This document shows, one piece after another, positions 2,664 through 9,739 of a stretch of 32,657 nucleotides of DNA. The translations under genes were made by a program, and so were the position numbers. Each line of letters begins with the position of its first letter. Within the stretch, counting starts at the first letter, position 1. The notes beneath the pieces were generated by a model. That model saw only the letters and a program-made list of their open reading frames with translations, ran no database searches and was not told the origin of the DNA. This DNA comes from Gemmatimonadaceae bacterium (GTDB lineage Bacteria > Gemmatimonadota > Gemmatimonadetes > Gemmatimonadales > Gemmatimonadaceae), in the NCBI GenBank assembly GCA_013813715.1, contig JACCRF010000054.1, positions 1-32,657 on the forward strand, read 5' to 3'.

Positions 2664-3046
2664 CAGTGCTTGTGACCTCCGGCTGCGCGGGCAGCATGGC
2701 ATTCCGCCGCTCCCGCTGGATTATCGTGACAGTCGCAATCGGGATCGCTGCACTCGCCGTGCCCCTGGCTTAGCAGCTCCGAGAACTCGTCCTTGAATCT
2801 ACGGGCCGCTTCACGCCGACCGACCTCGGTGAGCCGGTATTCCGTACTGCCTTCGCCGAGCTCGACAACAAACCTCCGGTCGACGAGATCGGTCAGAGTC
2901 GCCTGGACCAGGGTTTCCGGATGAGCGAGGAAGCGCGTAATACCGGGCAGGGTCGCGCTCGCCTGCAAGCCTTCGCCCTCGAACCAGTAGAGCAGCTCGA
3001 GCATCTCATCGCGTCGCGCAATTTCGTGTCCCGCGTCTTCGCTCAT
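2663..3046 (-). CDS. Winged-helix protein with Cys/His-rich C-terminal tail
   Basis: 127 residues. Residues about 10-85 look like a small winged-helix domain (helical DEMLELLYWFEGEG, then TLTDLVDRRFVVEL and the wing-like STEYRLTEVGRREAARRF). The tail holds C99, C104, C106, H107, C116, H117, H125 and H127, a spacing suited to binding Ni or Zn. The gene overlaps the protease gene upstream (ATGA at 3046-3043) and the CooC-like gene downstream (TGATG), so the three are probably translationally coupled. It could be a nickel-responsive regulator or a nickel chaperone that passes metal to the ATPase; both are inferences from tail and context. I do not recognise a named family. Confidence 0.8.
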   Translation of the reverse strand: MSEDAGHEIARRDEMLELLYWFEGEGLQASATLPGITRFLAHPETLVQATLTDLVDRRFVVELGEGSTEYRLTEVGRREAARRFKDEFSELLSQGHGECSDPDCDCHDNPAGAAECHAARAAGGHKH

Positions 3047-3543
3047 ATGCCTGCTTCGGTAACTATCGGGGGAAGTTCCTTCTCCAGCAGATGATGGATG
3101 CGTTGCACCGCGACGTCAACCGCTGCCCGCACCGGCGGCGTCAGCTCACCCGTCAGGTCACACGTCATCTCATCCACTTGCATGGGCTCGCACCCGACCA
3201 GTATCACCTTCGCCGGCAGGACCTTGAGGGCCTGCGCCACCGACAGCGCATGTGAGGGAATCGCGAGGTGCATGTCGACGCGCTGAACCTGCTCCACGGC
3301 ATCCACCTCAAGCACATAAATCGAACCGGGCTCGCCCCCTCTCGTCATGGCATCAGCGATGATGAGAAGGCCACAGGGCGTCAGCAGCTCCTGGGCGAGG
3401 CGAATCCCCGCCGTACCGACTTCCATCAGATCAACGCCGGGCCGGGAGACTCCGTCGTCCCGGAGACGCCGTATCACCTCGATTCCGAAGCCATCGTCGC
3501 CGCGGAGCGTATTGCCGAACCCCGCGATGAGTGTTCGCAGCAT
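3043..3543 (-). CDS. Hydrogenase maturation endopeptidase (HyaD/HybD family)
   Basis: 166 residues, the normal length for this family. These proteases clip the C-terminal tail of the large subunit after nickel insertion. The nucleotide-like start LIAGFGNTLRGDDGFG is diagnostic. D17 matches the nickel ligand E16 of E. coli HybD, D64 (IADAMT) matches D62, and H98 (IPSHAL) matches H93, so all three ligands are in place. EVGTAG and the C-terminal GELTPPV segments also fit. It starts two bases after the NifU/Rieske stop and overlaps the next gene by ATGA. It should act on the large subunit encoded at 4996-6894. Confidence 0.93.
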   Translation of the reverse strand: MLRTLIAGFGNTLRGDDGFGIEVIRRLRDDGVSRPGVDLMEVGTAGIRLAQELLTPCGLLIIADAMTRGGEPGSIYVLEVDAVEQVQRVDMHLAIPSHALSVAQALKVLPAKVILVGCEPMQVDEMTCDLTGELTPPVRAAVDVAVQRIHHLLEKELPPIVTEAGI

Positions 3544-3545
3544 TT

Positions 3546-4430
3546 TCAGCGCGGAACTGGCTCGACACCGACCGCAACCTCCACCCGGCCGGCTTCGACC
3601 CTCACTGGATACACACGGATGCGGTCGCCGCCGGAAGCATCAGCGCGCGTTCCCGAACGGAGATCGTACCGGCATCCGTGCCAGCTGCACACGAGGATGT
3701 CATCATCGAGGCGACTGTACGCCAGGGGAAGGGGACTCTCACCGCAGCGGTTCGCCACTGCGTAATACTCGCCTCCGAGATTGGCGATGAGGATCGACTC
3801 TTCGCCCCATTCGATCGCGCGTGTTTGACCAGGCTCGAGCTCCTGCGCAGGAAATGCCGTCTGGTATACCGGGCGGTTCGCCCGGCGGAGTCCACCGAGC
3901 TTCACCAGCTCGGACCCCTTGGTCGGCCGCTCACGTTCTCCGATGACGAGCATCTGAAATCCAATCAACCCTTCGTGCAGGGCCGCCTCGATGTCCCTTC
4001 GCACGGCATCCAGCGGGAGGGAGCTATCATCGATGCCGTGCAACTTGACGAAAACCTCGCTGCCTCCGACGTCGAGCAGCTCCACGTCGATGCCGTGCGC
4101 GTGCAGATGCCCGCGCACCGCATCCAGAGCCTCCTCGGCGATTATCCGGCGGTCCACTGCAAGCAGATCGTACGACATGAGAAGAAGGCGGATGGCCGGA
4201 TCCGCAGTGAGACGATCCATGAATTGCTCTCCGCCAATCCCGACGATCGCGTTGAACATGTGCGACAGTGCAGTCCGATGGACCGCATCGATGCCGCGCA
4301 GCAACTCTTCCACTCGTTCACCCACGGCCGGGTCGGGGTGACTCTGAAGCGATGCAATCAGGTTCGAGATTTCGTCGAGCAGATCCTGATCCTGCCGCAC
4401 TGCTCCCTCGTCCCCGCTATGTCCCGTCAT
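3546..4430 (-). CDS. NifU C-terminal-like and Rieske-like fusion protein with altered ligands
   Basis: 294 residues in three parts. Residues 1-100 are helical and unrecognised. Residues about 101-160 (LHAHGIDVELLDVGGSEVFV) match the NifU C-terminal scaffold fold, but the usual CxxC is replaced by DDSS near 134-137. Residues about 190-290 are a Rieske ferredoxin fold (EYYAVANRCGESPLPL, then LVCSWHGCRYDLRSG). The second ligand box CxxH is intact (C248, H251), but the first box, normally CxH, reads C229-G-E231. One histidine ligand is therefore glutamate unless C253 or another residue takes over. Such proteins are found in clusters of this hydrogenase type and are thought to relay electrons or help build clusters. 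It overlaps the preceding gene by ATGA. The cytoplasmic location is inferred from the lack of a signal peptide. Confidence 0.85.
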   Translation of the reverse strand: MTGHSGDEGAVRQDQDLLDEISNLIASLQSHPDPAVGERVEELLRGIDAVHRTALSHMFNAIVGIGGEQFMDRLTADPAIRLLLMSYDLLAVDRRIIAEEALDAVRGHLHAHGIDVELLDVGGSEVFVKLHGIDDSSLPLDAVRRDIEAALHEGLIGFQMLVIGERERPTKGSELVKLGGLRRANRPVYQTAFPAQELEPGQTRAIEWGEESILIANLGGEYYAVANRCGESPLPLAYSRLDDDILVCSWHGCRYDLRSGTRADASGGDRIRVYPVRVEAGRVEVAVGVEPVPR

Positions 4431-4984
4431 CCGAAGCGAAACGCCGGGGCGGTGGCCAGGGCGAGCGATCCAACCGGTAGCGCCGCAACCGCACTGTCAT
4501 CGGTCGCAAAGGACCATACGAGGTCACACACACGATCGACCTGCGCGGCGACCGCCGGGCTCAGCGCGGCGCCGAACTCGTGCGTCTCAGGCTCTACTTC
4601 CACGACGACCACCTCGTTCGGAAGCGCGCGGAAGTACCTGGCGATCACCAGCGTATTATCGAGCCGGATGATTCCGGTGACCGCTTCGGTGATTGCGCGC
4701 TGCACCTCATCGTCAGACGGCAGGATCCCATCCCATCGGAAGCAGCTGACTGTTCCCGCCGGCCTGTCTCCGCGCTTGACGGCGGACACGAACACTGCGC
4801 GCTCGAACCGATCGTCCGGGGGCTCATCTTCCAGCCGCTGGATGACTGCGATCGGATTGTAGCTCAGATCTTCGACGACGACGTTGGCGGGCGCCTGCCT
4901 CCCGGACAAGCGCTCCTGAACCTCCATGCCGATCGAGTAGTCACAAAGATCTGGATACGCGACTCCACCAACTATGACGCGCAC
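4427..4984 (-). CDS. Maturation-protease-like protein without catalytic metal ligands
   Basis: 185 residues. The N-terminus (IVGGVAYPDLCDYSIGMEV) lines up with the start of HyaD/HybD proteases, as do VVVEDLSYNP and the C-terminal HEFGAALSPAVAAQV. At the three metal-ligand positions the residues are Y16 (for E16), S67 (for D62) and D91 (for H93) by my hand alignment, so it should not bind nickel in the usual way. It follows the large subunit by 11 bases and precedes the NifU/Rieske gene with an ATGA overlap. A chaperone or recognition role for the large-subunit tail is plausible. The fold assignment is by motif pattern, so the identity is moderately sure and the function unknown. Confidence 0.8.
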   Translation of the reverse strand: MRVIVGGVAYPDLCDYSIGMEVQERLSGRQAPANVVVEDLSYNPIAVIQRLEDEPPDDRFERAVFVSAVKRGDRPAGTVSCFRWDGILPSDDEVQRAITEAVTGIIRLDNTLVIARYFRALPNEVVVVEVEPETHEFGAALSPAVAAQVDRVCDLVWSFATDDSAVAALPVGSLALATAPAFRFG

Positions 4985-4995
4985 CGACTACAGCT

Positions 4996-6894
4996 TCAAT
5001 CGTCGAGCCCGCACGCGCACGTGTTCACTTCGCGCGTGATCAGGCCACCCTCGGACTGGATGTGCGTAGTGCAGGGCATGCACGGGTCGAAGCTGCGGAT
5101 CGCGCGCAACACGTCGAGGCCCCGGAACTTCGCAGGATCGTTCGTCTCTTCGAGAAGCGGCGTGTTCAGGACCGCCTCTTCGTAGGGACCGGGCTGCCCC
5201 CACCTGTCGGTGGGAGATGCGTTCCAGCTGGACGGAGTTACGATCTGATAATTGGCGACGGCCCCGCGATCGAGTGTGAGATGATGGGTAAGATACCCGC
5301 GGCCCGCGCCCCAGAATCCGACACCCTGCTGCGTTCCACGCTTCGGAATCTCGAACTTCGTGCTCGTGCGCGAGTCACCGTCCTTGAGCCGGTCCATCGC
5401 CGCGCGCCACTGCTCGAAAGCGATGAGCGTCGTAAAGGCCTGGCAGTAGGCCCGCGCGCGGTTTCTCTCGAAGGCGTTCCATACCTCGGGCACGTGCCAC
5501 TCCAGCTCGGTCTCCGGCAGAGCGCCTGCCGGCACGCGCATCTTGAGTGAATGACCGGTGGACTCCATGAACGGGCTCTCGGGCATCTTTCGCGCGACAG
5601 CCGTGTTCCAGAGGCGCGCGTAAGCACCGGCTTCCATGCTCTGCCGGTCCCACCTGGGCGTCGTGTCCCACGTGTACTTCTCCTTCCAGTTCGTACCCTG
5701 CGGGCGCGGTCTCGTGACCTTGTTCCACGGATGATACGGCGACAGCGGATTCCCGCTTGGATCGGTCGCGAAGTGCTGCTGCTGCCCGTCGCCAGTCCAC
5801 TCCTCGTAGAAGGAATGCTCGACGAACTCCTCGAGCCCGATGTTGATCGTCTTGAGATCCGTCGTGACGAGCTTTCCCTCGACTATCGCTCCGGGGGTCG
5901 CCCAGCGCCGATTCCCCCAGTCGTTGGCGCTCTCGTACGTCGCGTCGTACGCGTCCGGATGATCGAAAATTCCCGTGTCGATCATGTTCGCGCGTCTTGC
6001 TCCCACCTTCTTGTATTCCGGGTTCGCATCGTAGAAAAAATCTGTGATGTCATCCCAGATCAGCGCAAGCTTCTTCGAGTAGTCGAAGAATTGAGACAAT
6101 CGAACGAACATCTCGTTCATTACAGTGAGATTGATCGTCGAGCTCATGCCGCCCGGCACGATGGTCTGCGGATGGGGATACTTGCCGCAGATCAGCACAT
6201 ACGCCTCGCGCGCGACGCGAGTCATGTGAAGCGCTTCCACATACAACCGTCCTGTGAGCGGATTGAGATCCGTCATCAGGTCAGCAATGGTTCGGTATCC
6301 GTGGATCGCGGTATGGTGAGCTTCGGTAACCTTCGCGCGCTCGTACAACGAGGGATTCGTCGGCTCGACGATCACTTGCGAGTAGTCGGGCCCGGCGAGA
6401 AGATGAAGATGCAGCGGGTGGTCGTAGAGGAACTCGAGCGCCAACGCGAGATTGCGGATCAGCACTCCCATGGGTGGCGGACAACATCCGATGGCCATCT
6501 CGGTGGCAAGCGCCGAACAAACGGAGTGAACCCCGCCGCATACACCGCAGGCGCGGCTGGTGATGTAGATCGCGTCACGCGGATCGCGGCCCACCATGAT
6601 GACCTCGTACCCGCGAAACAGCGTGGCCACAGACCGAGCCTCGAGCACCTTCCTGTTCTCGAAGTCAGCCACCGTATGGAACGCAAGGGCGCCGGCCACG
6701 CGCGTAACCGGATCGAAATCCAGGGACTTGATGTGGCCGTTCCGCTTGAGCAGCTCCTGGATATTTTCGGAAGTGAGCTGCCGCGGTCCTTCCGGCGGCG
6801 TGGCCGTTGCCGTGGCGTATGGATCACCGACACCGTTGCGCAGAAACGGCTTACCGCCGGCGTCGAACTCCACTGGGAGATTCTTGAAGCACAT
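4996..6894 (-). CDS. hhyL: [NiFe]-hydrogenase large subunit, group 1h/1l-like
   Basis: 632 residues. This is the catalytic subunit that splits H2 at a NiFe(CN)2CO centre. The L1 motif SRACGVCGGVH supplies C116 and C119, and the L2 motif DPCMPCTTH supplies C605 and C608. After H611 there is a 21-residue tail ending TCACGLDD, which a maturation protease should remove. The short N-terminus with the phrase DFDPVTRVAGAL and the DPCMPC motif point to the actinobacterial-type, high-affinity uptake enzymes (group 1h, or the related 1l) that scavenge atmospheric H2. A tree is needed to choose between them. There is no Tat signal. GAAGGA lies 12 bases before the ATG. It is separated from the small subunit by five small membrane-protein genes. 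Confidence 0.95.
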   Translation of the reverse strand: MCFKNLPVEFDAGGKPFLRNGVGDPYATATATPPEGPRQLTSENIQELLKRNGHIKSLDFDPVTRVAGALAFHTVADFENRKVLEARSVATLFRGYEVIMVGRDPRDAIYITSRACGVCGGVHSVCSALATEMAIGCCPPPMGVLIRNLALALEFLYDHPLHLHLLAGPDYSQVIVEPTNPSLYERAKVTEAHHTAIHGYRTIADLMTDLNPLTGRLYVEALHMTRVAREAYVLICGKYPHPQTIVPGGMSSTINLTVMNEMFVRLSQFFDYSKKLALIWDDITDFFYDANPEYKKVGARRANMIDTGIFDHPDAYDATYESANDWGNRRWATPGAIVEGKLVTTDLKTINIGLEEFVEHSFYEEWTGDGQQQHFATDPSGNPLSPYHPWNKVTRPRPQGTNWKEKYTWDTTPRWDRQSMEAGAYARLWNTAVARKMPESPFMESTGHSLKMRVPAGALPETELEWHVPEVWNAFERNRARAYCQAFTTLIAFEQWRAAMDRLKDGDSRTSTKFEIPKRGTQQGVGFWGAGRGYLTHHLTLDRGAVANYQIVTPSSWNASPTDRWGQPGPYEEAVLNTPLLEETNDPAKFRGLDVLRAIRSFDPCMPCTTHIQSEGGLITREVNTCACGLDD

Positions 6895-6909: not shown

Positions 6910-7173
6910 TCAGGTGAGTTTGAATACCGAGGCGGCGCGGCCCAGGTGGCCATCGGCCACGCGCAGCCCGCCGAGAAGCGCGACGAGCGCTCCGTTTATC
7001 GTCGTCAGCTTTTCGGGGAGCGGAGCGGTATGGCCCGCGACCGCCTCCAGTCCATTGGCAATCGCGATCACGCTTTTCCGGGCAGCAAGCAGTGCCCAGG
7101 CGATACCGATCAAGTAGCCCGCGAGCGCAATGACCACCAGCGCGACCGTGATGAGCGTGAGTGTCAGCAACAT
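6910..7173 (-). CDS. Small single-helix membrane protein E (family B)
   Basis: 87 residues from ATG at 7173, chosen because GAGGA lies eight bases upstream and the protein then begins directly with the membrane helix (LLTLTLITVALVVIALAGYL). The soluble part (IANGLEAVAGHTAPLP, then INGALVALLGGLRVADGHLG) repeats the pattern of the protein at 7489-7809 (GVRAIEVQTGHLAP, LNGGLTAIRDGLGAIDGNLD), so the two are paralogs. It sits just before the large subunit gene. A membrane anchor or quinone-path scaffold for the hydrogenase is inferred from position only. Confidence 0.8.
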   Translation of the reverse strand: MLLTLTLITVALVVIALAGYLIGIAWALLAARKSVIAIANGLEAVAGHTAPLPEKLTTINGALVALLGGLRVADGHLGRAASVFKLT

Positions 7174-7183
7174 TGCGAAATCC

Positions 7184-7492
7184 TCATTGGGCTCTCTGCT
7201 CGAGAACGTCGGCGATCGTCCCGAGCTTGCCGGCCACATTGCCGGCGGTGCCAAGAATCTGCCCGGCCACCTCGATGGTGGTATCGAGCGCGACGATGTT
7301 TGCGGTATTGCCCGCTATCCCGGCCGCCGCCTGCAATGCGTCAGCCGCGAAACGCTGAATCGACCGCGCGGCCAGAAAGGTGCGATTGAGATAGTAGACC
7401 GCCATTGGCACGAAGAGCACGAGCGTTACGATCAGCCCGATCCACCAGATCGTAAACACTGCGTCGGGAAACATCGCTGGCTGGTCGGTCAT
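7184..7492 (-). CDS. Small single-helix membrane protein D (family A)
   Basis: 102 residues. After a short N-terminus come one membrane helix (WWIGLIVTLVLFVPMAVYYL) and a helical tail with IVALDTTIEVAGQILGTAG and a final GKLGTIADVLEQ. The tail matches the first small protein of the series (IWALETTNEVAGELLETVK, GGKLVEALES), so they are duplicates. The start ATG at 7492 overlaps the previous stop as ATGA. No catalytic or metal motif is visible. Confidence 0.85.
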   Translation of the reverse strand: MTDQPAMFPDAVFTIWWIGLIVTLVLFVPMAVYYLNRTFLAARSIQRFAADALQAAAGIAGNTANIVALDTTIEVAGQILGTAGNVAGKLGTIADVLEQRAQ

Positions 7493-7809
7493 CGGACCTC
7501 CTGCGCTGATACGGCGGCGATGACGCCGTCCAGGTTCCCGTCTATCGCGCCGAGTCCGTCACGAATCGCCGTAAGTCCTCCGTTCAGCGCGATCACCTGG
7601 GGCGCCAGATGCCCGGTCTGCACTTCGATCGCCCGCACTCCGAGACGAATCTTCGAGAGAAAGCTTGCGGGAAGGCCGTACCCCGCTTTCTTGACGCCCC
7701 CGATCCGCTCCAGCTCGCCGACGATGTGGTGCAGGAAAATCGCCAACGCGATGAACAGCGCAGCAGCGGCGACCAGGGATACCATCGCCAGCACTGTCAT
7801 GGTATTCAT
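7489..7809 (-). CDS. Small single-helix membrane protein C (family B)
   Basis: 106 residues from ATG at 7809, which overlaps the previous stop (ATGA). A longer frame reaching further upstream has an Arg-rich non-membrane start and is unlikely. The membrane helix is VLAMVSLVAAAALFIALAIF at residues about 6-25. The tail IRLGVRAIEVQTGHLAPQV and LNGGLTAIRDGLGAIDGNLD is shared in pattern with the protein at 6910-7173. It probably packs as a helical bundle beside the membrane. Function unknown; it is part of the hydrogenase operon. Confidence 0.82.
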   Translation of the reverse strand: MNTMTVLAMVSLVAAAALFIALAIFLHHIVGELERIGGVKKAGYGLPASFLSKIRLGVRAIEVQTGHLAPQVIALNGGLTAIRDGLGAIDGNLDGVIAAVSAQEVR

Positions 7810-8138
7810 CGCAGCCACTCCGGCCCGATCACGCAGGCAGGGCAGCCCGGGCATTCCTTTGCGTGCGCATGCACTCCTGCAGTCGCGTTCACCACCCCCA
7901 CGGCCGATCCGAGAATTGCTCCGGCAACTGCGTTGGTCTTGAACAGCAGCGCGATGTGAATTGTGTTGTTCGCTATCCGCTGGCCGACGTTCCAAATAGC
8001 GGAGACGCCGCCGGTGATATCCTTTGCGGTACGGAGTATAAGTGTCAGAAGGATCGCAACGACCACGAGCACGACGACGAACACCGCGAGGGTGATCGTC
8101 CAGATCGTTTGAACCGTTGCTGGAGTGAGCTCAGCCAT
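7806..8138 (-). CDS. Small single-helix membrane protein B with CPGCPAC tail (family A)
   Basis: 110 residues from ATG at 8138, preceded by GGGGGAGG at good distance. It overlaps the upstream gene by 8 bases and the next one by ATGA. One membrane helix (ITLAVFVVVLVVVAILLTLI) is followed by a tail with LLFKTNAVAGAILGSA, a divergent copy of the TTNEVAG block of its neighbours. Unlike the others it ends with HAHAKECPGCPACVIGP, three cysteines spaced CxxCxxC with nearby histidines, which could hold a metal or cluster. This is a visible motif; any electron-transfer role is speculation. Confidence 0.82.
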   Translation of the reverse strand: MAELTPATVQTIWTITLAVFVVVLVVVAILLTLILRTAKDITGGVSAIWNVGQRIANNTIHIALLFKTNAVAGAILGSAVGVVNATAGVHAHAKECPGCPACVIGPEWLR

Positions 8139-8442
8139 GGACACCTCCCCCACTCGCACCGGCGTGGCTTTCCAGCGCTTCAACGAGCTTTCCCCCTTTC
8201 GCCTCGATGCTCTTTACTGTTTCGAGCAGCTCCCCCGCTACCTCATTAGTCGTCTCCAGCGCCCAGATGGGCATAGTGCTCTCGCGAATCTTCTCCGCCG
8301 CGGCAAGCGCCCGTCGCGCGTGAGCGAGAATGCTGCGCGCGGTGAGCCAGATCGTGATGAGAAGCGCGGCAGCGATGACGATCACGACTGTTGCCAGCGC
8401 CATCCAGAGCCACCATGCCCGCCATAGTTCAGCGTCCGTCAC
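8131..8442 (-). CDS. Small single-helix membrane protein A (family A)
   Basis: 103 residues if it starts at GTG 8442, which has GGGAGG six bases upstream. An ATG at 8448 abuts that site with no spacer, so GTG is preferred. It overlaps the small-subunit gene by 14 bases. The layout is an aromatic N-terminus (ELWRAWWLWM), a membrane helix (ALATVVIVIAAALLITIWL) and a helical tail with IWALETTNEVAGELLETVK. It is the first of five such genes set between the two hydrogenase subunits. Confidence 0.83.
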   Translation of the reverse strand: MTDAELWRAWWLWMALATVVIVIAAALLITIWLTARSILAHARRALAAAEKIRESTMPIWALETTNEVAGELLETVKSIEAKGGKLVEALESHAGASGGGVHG

Positions 8443-9733
8443 GTGCATCCTCCCGGGCGGAACTGTCATCGAGATAATCGGCACTGGTGCCCGGACGGTC
8501 CACTCCCCAGAACCGATCTTCGGTTCCCTTCGGCCGGCCCGGCGCCTTCGCTCCCCAGAACTGCCACTTCTTGTAGAAGAACTCCATCATCTTGAGCGTC
8601 GGCGACGCACCCTTCACGTTCGCCCATCCGCTTGGAACCGCGTTGAGCTTGTCCCATCGAACTTCACTGTTCGCGTGGCGGTTGCTGAGCCGCCTCGCCC
8701 GCCGTATTACGGCTCCCGTCCCGCGAGACATGGCCGTCGAGATCATCCCGCCGGGGGGCTCCTTGTAGAATGGCGAGAACTTGTCGGGGAAGCCGGGCAT
8801 CGTGCACGCGATGCAGACGCCGCCCGCCTCCATGCATCCGCCCATGTGGTTCATCGCCCCGCGCTTCACGATGTTGCAATTGACGACCGGACCCCAGCAT
8901 CCCAGCTCGATGAGACATTCCGGATCGCCGTAATTCTTTGCGAACACGCCTTCCTCGTAGTATCCGGCGCGGTTGCACCCGCGATGCACTGTCTCGGTGA
9001 ACAGCCAGGCCGGCCGCCCGAGCTCGTCGAATGCCGGCAGCGGCCCCAGTCCTTGCAGGAACAGGAGAATCGCGAATACGGTCTCAGTAAAGTTGTCGCC
9101 CTGCGGCGCACAGCCCGGGATATTGATGACCGGCAGACCGAATGCGCTGCGGTAATCCTTGCCCAGGAAATCCATCAGGCTCATGGCGCCTGTGGGGTTG
9201 CCTGCCGCGGAGGGAACTCCTCCCCATGTCGCACAGGTACCGATCGCGATTGTAGCAGCGGCGCCGGGTGCAAGACGAGAGATCCATTCCGCCGACGGAA
9301 CGGGACACGACTGTCCGCCTTCCGACAGTACTTCGGTACCCATCGCCGAGAAGTATCCCCCGGTACGCGCCGCTATTCGCTCGTCGGCAATAGACCCCTC
9401 GGCCACGATGACGTAAGGATCCTGGAGTCTGCCTTCCCACGCATCCTTGAATGGCTGAATGAACGCTTCGCCGGCCTCTACAGAAAGAACGGTGTGATGG
9501 AGTATGACCTGAGGCATCGTCGGTACGATGCCGAGCAGAAGACCCTCGATGCCGGGATTGGTCGCGCCCGCGACGGCGACGGTGCAGCCATCGCAGCTCA
9601 TTCCGGCGAGCCAGAAGACGTGCACGGTCTTGATCGGACCCAGCGGCAACCGCTCGGGTTTCGGATGGGGCTCCGTTGCCGGGATGGATGGCTGACCCCC
9701 CTGGACCGTGTCCCTTTCCAGCACTGTCGCCAT
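8429..9733 (-). CDS. hhyS: [NiFe]-hydrogenase small subunit, group 1h/1l-like
   Basis: About 434 residues. This is the electron-transfer subunit with three FeS clusters. The proximal motif is WLAGMSCDGCTVAV; later ligands are in IGTCATWGG and IPGCAPQGDN, and the medial and distal cluster ligands are in TVHRGCN, LGCWGPVVNC and GGVCIACTMPGFPDKF. CDGC is the form seen in actinobacterial-type enzymes, where an aspartate is reported as one proximal ligand (recalled for the Ralstonia enzyme). There is no twin-arginine signal at the N-terminus, so the enzyme should stay inside the cell. Start: AAGGAG (9745-9740) touches the ATG at 9739 but is six bases from the ATG at 9733, so 9733 is preferred. First gene of the operon. 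Confidence 0.94.
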   Translation of the reverse strand: MATVLERDTVQGGQPSIPATEPHPKPERLPLGPIKTVHVFWLAGMSCDGCTVAVAGATNPGIEGLLLGIVPTMPQVILHHTVLSVEAGEAFIQPFKDAWEGRLQDPYVIVAEGSIADERIAARTGGYFSAMGTEVLSEGGQSCPVPSAEWISRLAPGAAATIAIGTCATWGGVPSAAGNPTGAMSLMDFLGKDYRSAFGLPVINIPGCAPQGDNFTETVFAILLFLQGLGPLPAFDELGRPAWLFTETVHRGCNRAGYYEEGVFAKNYGDPECLIELGCWGPVVNCNIVKRGAMNHMGGCMEAGGVCIACTMPGFPDKFSPFYKEPPGGMISTAMSRGTGAVIRRARRLSNRHANSEVRWDKLNAVPSGWANVKGASPTLKMMEFFYKKWQFWGAKAPGRPKGTEDRFWGVDRPGTSADYLDDSSAREDARDGR

Positions 9734-9739
9734 GCCCAT

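Follow-up and report, generated by a model that had tools for sequence, protein, structure and literature searches.

The window, a 32,657-nucleotide stretch of a Gemmatimonadaceae genome (contig JACCRF010000054.1), carries a [NiFe]-hydrogenase gene cluster in which five small genes separate the two enzyme subunits, all on the minus strand. The small subunit, HylS (8429 to 9739), matches the Pfam models NiFe_hyd_SSU_C and Oxidored_q6, and the large subunit, HylL (4996 to 6894), matches NiFeSe_Hases at 7e-77. Between them lie HylTM1 (8131 to 8442; 103 amino acids, GTG start), HylTM2 (7806 to 8138; 110 amino acids), HylTM3 (7489 to 7809; 106 amino acids), HylTM4 (7184 to 7492; 102 amino acids), and HylTM5 (6910 to 7173; 87 amino acids). 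An earlier note on this DNA had called these genes overlapping, which is accurate for four junctions (HylS/HylTM1, 14 nt; HylTM1/HylTM2, 8 nt; HylTM2/HylTM3 and HylTM3/HylTM4, 4 nt each) but not for HylTM4/HylTM5 and HylTM5/HylL, which are spaced by 10 and 15 nt. The same note gave each protein one N-terminal membrane helix, and each indeed has a single strong hydrophobic segment. No Pfam or NCBIfam model scored above its cut-off for any of the five proteins. We could nevertheless rule out that they are chance open reading frames, because homologues of all five recur in the same order in 25 clusters from eight phyla.

When we compared the five families by profile-profile alignment (25 rows per family), HylTM1, HylTM2, and HylTM4 formed one group, family A (probability, 98.4 to 98.8; E about 1e-15 to 1e-17), and HylTM3 and HylTM5 formed another, family B (probability, 98.8; E of 1e-16). 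Scores between A and B were weak or mixed, the best being HylTM1 against HylTM5 (probability, 95.5). This grouping agrees with the earlier sorting of the tails into three A and two B members, and it supports the proposal that the set grew by duplication. All five families have positive charges after the helix, conspicuously so in HylTM1, -2, -4, and -5 and slightly in HylTM3, so that the positive-inside rule predicts an N-out/C-in topology with cytoplasmic tails. Averaged over 25 sequences, tail amphipathicity exceeded that of shuffled sequences (mean z of 1.9 to 3.5); the window's own HylTM2 and HylTM3 tails are modestly amphipathic (z of 1.2 and 1.5). A structure model of HylTM2 (mean pLDDT, 79) places helices at residues 6 to 57 and 62 to 95, with the break at a conserved NNT region, and ends in a loose cysteine-containing tail.

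Downstream of HylL, still on the minus strand, the cluster encodes two HycI/HupD-like maturation proteases, one matching TIGR00072 weakly, just under the cut-off (4427 to 4984; E of 2.8e-12), and one over it (3043 to 3543). Between these, at 3546 to 4430, lies a protein with Rieske (3.9e-10) and NifU (1.5e-4) domains arranged as in HucE, a protein that mycobacteria require for H2 oxidation and that has been proposed as an electron acceptor (PMC6883350). A CooC-type ATPase gene with an in-frame TGA at 2330 to 2328, a candidate selenoprotein, occupies 1851 to 2702.

Conservation and rearrangement of the HylTM set

The earlier note had considered a five-member set of two families unusual. That judgment did not stand, as the set is the published HylTM1-5, the hallmark of the group 1l [NiFe]-hydrogenases (Ray 2022, PMC9561532, citing Ortiz 2021 PNAS); the group 1l passages of that paper describe five short predicted membrane proteins between the small- and large-subunit genes. 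The window has five such proteins between hylS and hylL, and we provisionally assign the enzyme to the group 1l type of atmospheric [NiFe]-hydrogenase, with HylTM1-5 as its putative dedicated membrane proteins.

To follow the set across genomes, we ran profiles of the five families over 80 loci from a HylS genome scan and over further loci from phylum searches. The comparison with other clusters that the earlier note had proposed revealed the order S-TM1-TM2-TM3-TM4-TM5-L in 25 clusters, which belong to the Gemmatimonadota, Chloroflexota, Thermomicrobiota, Rubrobacteria, Verrucomicrobiota, Pseudomonadota, Myxococcota, and Bacteroidota. Four- or five-member sets lie near nearly all other TM-bearing clusters. 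Many Actinomycetota (loci L063 to L103 and L123) have S and L adjacent and the set rearranged, either split, with three TM genes divergent upstream of S and two 4 to 5 kb downstream of L, or as four TM genes upstream of S. In still other clusters the set has four members, located upstream of S or within the gap between S and L. Within a HofK-like clade (L036 to L044) we found neither a HylTM homologue nor any other small single-helix protein nearby. The presence of the set in related clusters and its absence from this TM-less clade bear out the suggestion that it is tied to the hydrogenase.

Two further arrangements deserve mention. A Thermomicrobiales cluster (L060, 8137 to 8974) has just two HylTM homologues, one A-like and one B-like, between S and L, and this is possibly a minimal HylTM set. 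In Pseudonocardia nigra (L074), a further HylTM-like set of four members (1300 to 2345) lies next to HypD/HypE-like genes and is separate from the one adjacent to HylS.

In a tree of HylS sequences, the TM-less and split clades each formed one fully supported group, and the window fell in the TM-bearing clade beside five-gene clusters of Bacteroidota and proteobacteria, apart from the HofK-like clade. The closest PDB matches of HylS and HylL are HofK and HofG, respectively (both 5aa5); no group 1l structure was present in the PDB copy that we searched. HylS lacks a Tat signal, and the enzyme is therefore expected to be cytoplasmic. In TM-bearing clusters, whether five-member, four-member, or split, HylS runs beyond the end of HofK in a conserved VPSGWx...FxYxKx segment (about residues 365 to 436 in the window, VPSGW...FFYKKWQ), whereas HylS of the TM-less clade ends without it. 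Because this extension co-occurs with the TM set, we regard it as the best candidate for a docking site. Natural fusions between TM genes, or between HylS and a TM gene, numbered 0 among 340 open reading frames with hits, and gene fusions thus offer no evidence for contact between the HylTM proteins and the enzyme.

The HylTM2 cysteine tail and its putative selenocysteine form

HylTM2 is the only one of the five families with two or more cysteines in its tail, a feature that the earlier note had passed over. Its C-terminal motif, HAxxCPGCPxC[VI], is conserved in Gemmatimonadota, Bacteroidota, and Gammaproteobacteria, and a variant, CPRCPQQC, occurs in one Chloroflexota MAG; overall, the motif is conserved across four phyla. 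The window's version, CPGCPAC, spans residues 96 to 102 (7853 to 7833), with the middle cysteine at residue 99. The motif is missing from 6 of the 25 five-gene clusters and from all four-member and split sets, and the lineages without it include Thermomicrobiales, some Rubrobacter, and Myxococcota. Since several lineages keep all five genes without the motif, it appears to be accessory rather than needed for the complex.

A search that read through stop codons collected seven genomes, six Rubrobacteria and one Chloroflexota MAG, in which the middle cysteine codon is replaced by an in-frame TGA. At loci L050, L052, and L124, the frame reaches CPG, then the TGA, and then P[HR]C[VA]L as in the cysteine forms. 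From comparative sequence evidence, we consider it very probable that this position is selenocysteine (Sec). The TGA could instead be a real stop, with the similarity downstream reflecting a ribosome-binding or leader sequence of hylTM3, whose start follows closely. We give this reading very little weight, because the peptide after the TGA agrees with the cysteine-form tails residue for residue and because the ten codons after it are 94% identical among the six Rubrobacteria, compared to 24 to 60% after the true stops of HylTM1, -3, -4, and -5. Codons for the same residue are also identical more often after the TGA (108 of 126, 86%) than before it (661 of 1,053, 63%), as expected if the RNA were constrained as well. 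Furthermore, a deletion of exactly 36 nt in two Rubrobacter relatives has removed a clean block of 12 codons corresponding to LDCPG(TGA)PxCVLG and leaves the following RGQG in frame.

The decoding machinery points the same way. SelB scored over its cut-off in all three of the seven Sec-form genomes searched for it (G395 to G397), tRNA-Sec was found in G396 and G397, and a SelD with its own TGA was found in five of the seven (G395, G397, G417, G425, and G448). In G422 a SelD fragment is the sole marker, and each of the seven genomes has at least one. No tRNA-Sec was found in the Chloroflexota MAG. Neither SelB nor tRNA-Sec scored over the cut-off in the Bacteroidota and gammaproteobacterial genomes with the cysteine form.

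A hairpin whose loop begins with GG follows the TGA (GUCCUC-GGUC-GAGGAC; at L050, CCUGGCC-GGU-GGCCAGG) and has no counterpart at the corresponding place in the cysteine forms. The published bSECIS model has G in the first two loop positions, a stem of 4 to 16 bp, a minimum free energy of -7.5 or lower, and a loop 16 to 37 nt after the UGA (PMC13188914). Stem, loop G, and energy of our hairpins fit this model, and the spacing is 18 nt at L050 but 15 nt, one short of the published range, in Rubrobacteria, where the hairpin of the CooC-type ATPase has the same 15-nt spacing. In G417, a different fold of the stretch is slightly preferred. The shuffle z-scores of the HylTM2 hairpins are weak, in keeping with a real stop, and for this reason the case for Sec rests on the conservation, the deletion, and the machinery. 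The tree, with L053 as sister, suggests that the cysteine form is likely ancestral, with one change to Sec and later loss. HylTM2 is not among the 119 prokaryotic selenoprotein families of a 2026 inventory (PMC13188914), and it has no NCBIfam model.

The window's CooC-type ATPase is a second candidate selenoprotein. Its two half open reading frames (2702 to 2328 and 2243 to 1851) join into one protein when read through the TGA at 2330 to 2328, and we rejected a broken gene in favor of a Sec codon. The TGA aligns with the first cysteine of the CxC motif in CooC1 (3kje), a position at which 23 distinct sequences have TGA and 40 have cysteine. Just downstream of the TGA, a helix is paired in 97.6% of cells across 17 TGA sequences, with changes on both sides; no shuffle out of 500 and no slid register matched this level. 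The genome has SelB, tRNA-Sec, and a SelD of the Sec type, and the organism appears to decode Sec. With a TGA/Cys pair, a covarying SECIS helix, and the machinery in place, the ATPase is probably a selenoprotein; CooC-type ATPases are absent by name from the 119-family inventory (PMC13188914). The SelD gene (L192, C12:16662-17606) itself contains an in-frame TGA and adjoins the tRNA-Sec gene. We also looked for a link between the HylTM2 motif and the Sec state of the ATPase and rejected it, as the two vary independently across loci.

Proposed role of the set

Taken together, these observations lead us to favor, with reasonable though limited confidence, a model in which HylTM1-5 anchor the cytoplasmic HylSL near the quinone pool and the HylTM2 tail serves as an accessory redox or soft-metal site. 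The five single-pass helices would bundle in the membrane, and their cytoplasmic tails would dock HylSL through the HylS extension. Docking would hold the distal cluster near this pool, so that quinone could be reduced nearby. The cysteine tail of HylTM2, which follows two cytoplasmic helices and would sit next to the enzyme, may serve redox protection, regulation, or the handling of metals. Replacement of Cys by Sec is a change typically seen at redox cysteines (PMC1794560). The ATPase of the same clusters has Sec at a metal-binding cysteine, so both the redox and the metal readings of this thiol or selenol site stand. A bolder version, in which the CPGCPxC/CPGUPxC tail makes HylTM2 a redox-active subunit that has HylSL or its electron acceptor as direct reaction partner, strikes us as conceivable but somewhat doubtful.

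Other functions would account for part of the evidence. The five tails could form a hetero-oligomeric hydrophobic tube that brings quinone to HylS, like the HucM stalk, with the HylTM2 tail incidental. The amphipathic tails, the two HylTM2 helices (about 50 and about 34 residues long), and the precedent of Huc, in which quinone travels a long range through a coiled-coil tube (PMC10017518), are all compatible with such a tube. However, HucM is one soluble, peripheral, tetrameric protein, compared to five single-pass proteins here; a search with the HylTM2 profile, the one of the five that was used, recovered no HucM chain at E values up to 10; and with true transmembrane helices the enzyme could reach the membrane even if there were no tube. 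We therefore regard the stalk as unlikely, though it is the strongest of the competing functions.

A poorer prospect is that the HylTM proteins are assembly factors, docking the maturing HylSL, aiding metal delivery or quality control alongside the CooC-type ATPase and the proteases, and standing outside the mature enzyme. The clusters do encode that ATPase and those proteases, a CxxCxxC tail is a possible ligand for Ni, Zn, or Fe, and the ATPase's Sec at its metal-binding CxC sets a precedent in the same cluster. Yet five co-conserved membrane proteins exceed the needs of a chaperone, the HylTM2 motif varies independently of the ATPase's Sec state, and Bacteroidota clusters have the motif with no ATPase detectable nearby. 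Still less credible is an obligatory relay, in which the Cys/Sec/His motif would hold an Fe-S cluster or a metal that hands electrons arriving from the HylS distal cluster on to quinone. A CxxCxxC sequence preceded by His does resemble metal-binding motifs, and its conservation spans phyla, but Sec is a rare Fe-S ligand and the motif is lost from several lineages that retain the five-gene set. For this latter reason, the tail is probably not an obligatory relay.

When Sec has taken the place of cysteine in a conserved motif, the site is usually a functional redox or metal center. The probable exchange in HylTM2 thus points to a working chemical site rather than a mere anchor, and turns one of five anchor-like proteins into a testable active component with three residues to mutate. 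If both the redox-active HylTM2 and the Sec-type ATPase are real, aerobic oxidation of atmospheric H2 would depend partly on selenium outside the [NiFeSe] active site, and the HylTM2 tail would have been upgraded to a CPGUPxC selenoprotein in desert Rubrobacteria. In arid and hyper-arid soils, group 1l is reportedly more abundant than any other hydrogenase lineage (PMC8528921). Selenium supply could affect the uptake of atmospheric H2 by some desert bacteria.

Comparison with known systems

In the eukaryotic selenoproteins SelS and SelK, a single membrane helix is followed by a cytosolic helix or loose tail with Sec near the C terminus. The Sec form of HylTM2 would have a similar layout, and since the systems are unrelated we claim no homology. 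Among hydrogenases, the closest solved relatives of HylS and HylL are those of group 1h HofKG (5AA5), and the HofK-like clusters that we sampled differ from the window in having neither the TM set nor the HylS extension. HucM, the 188-residue, peripherally attached tetramer of the group 2a hydrogenase Huc (PMC10017518), is, as we propose for the HylTM set, a helical protein linking a high-affinity hydrogenase of the cytoplasm to the membrane.

Group 1l itself has the same five short membrane proteins in the same position as the window. The five-member set, its position, and the membrane prediction were already known (PMC9561532). The group 1l passages of that paper give the number and position of the proteins and do not describe the A and B families, the conservation of gene order, the CPG[C/U]PxC tail of HylTM2, its Sec form, or the HylS extension. 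What we add is this tail with its putative Sec form, the extension, the rearranged sets, and the apparently Sec-type CooC ATPase. The split clusters also recall group 1m, for which the corresponding passages report two small membrane proteins (PMC9561532). They share with it adjacent S and L genes, an actinomycetotal host, small single-helix proteins, and a CooC-type ATPase, but they carry four or five HylTM homologues where group 1m is described with two small proteins.
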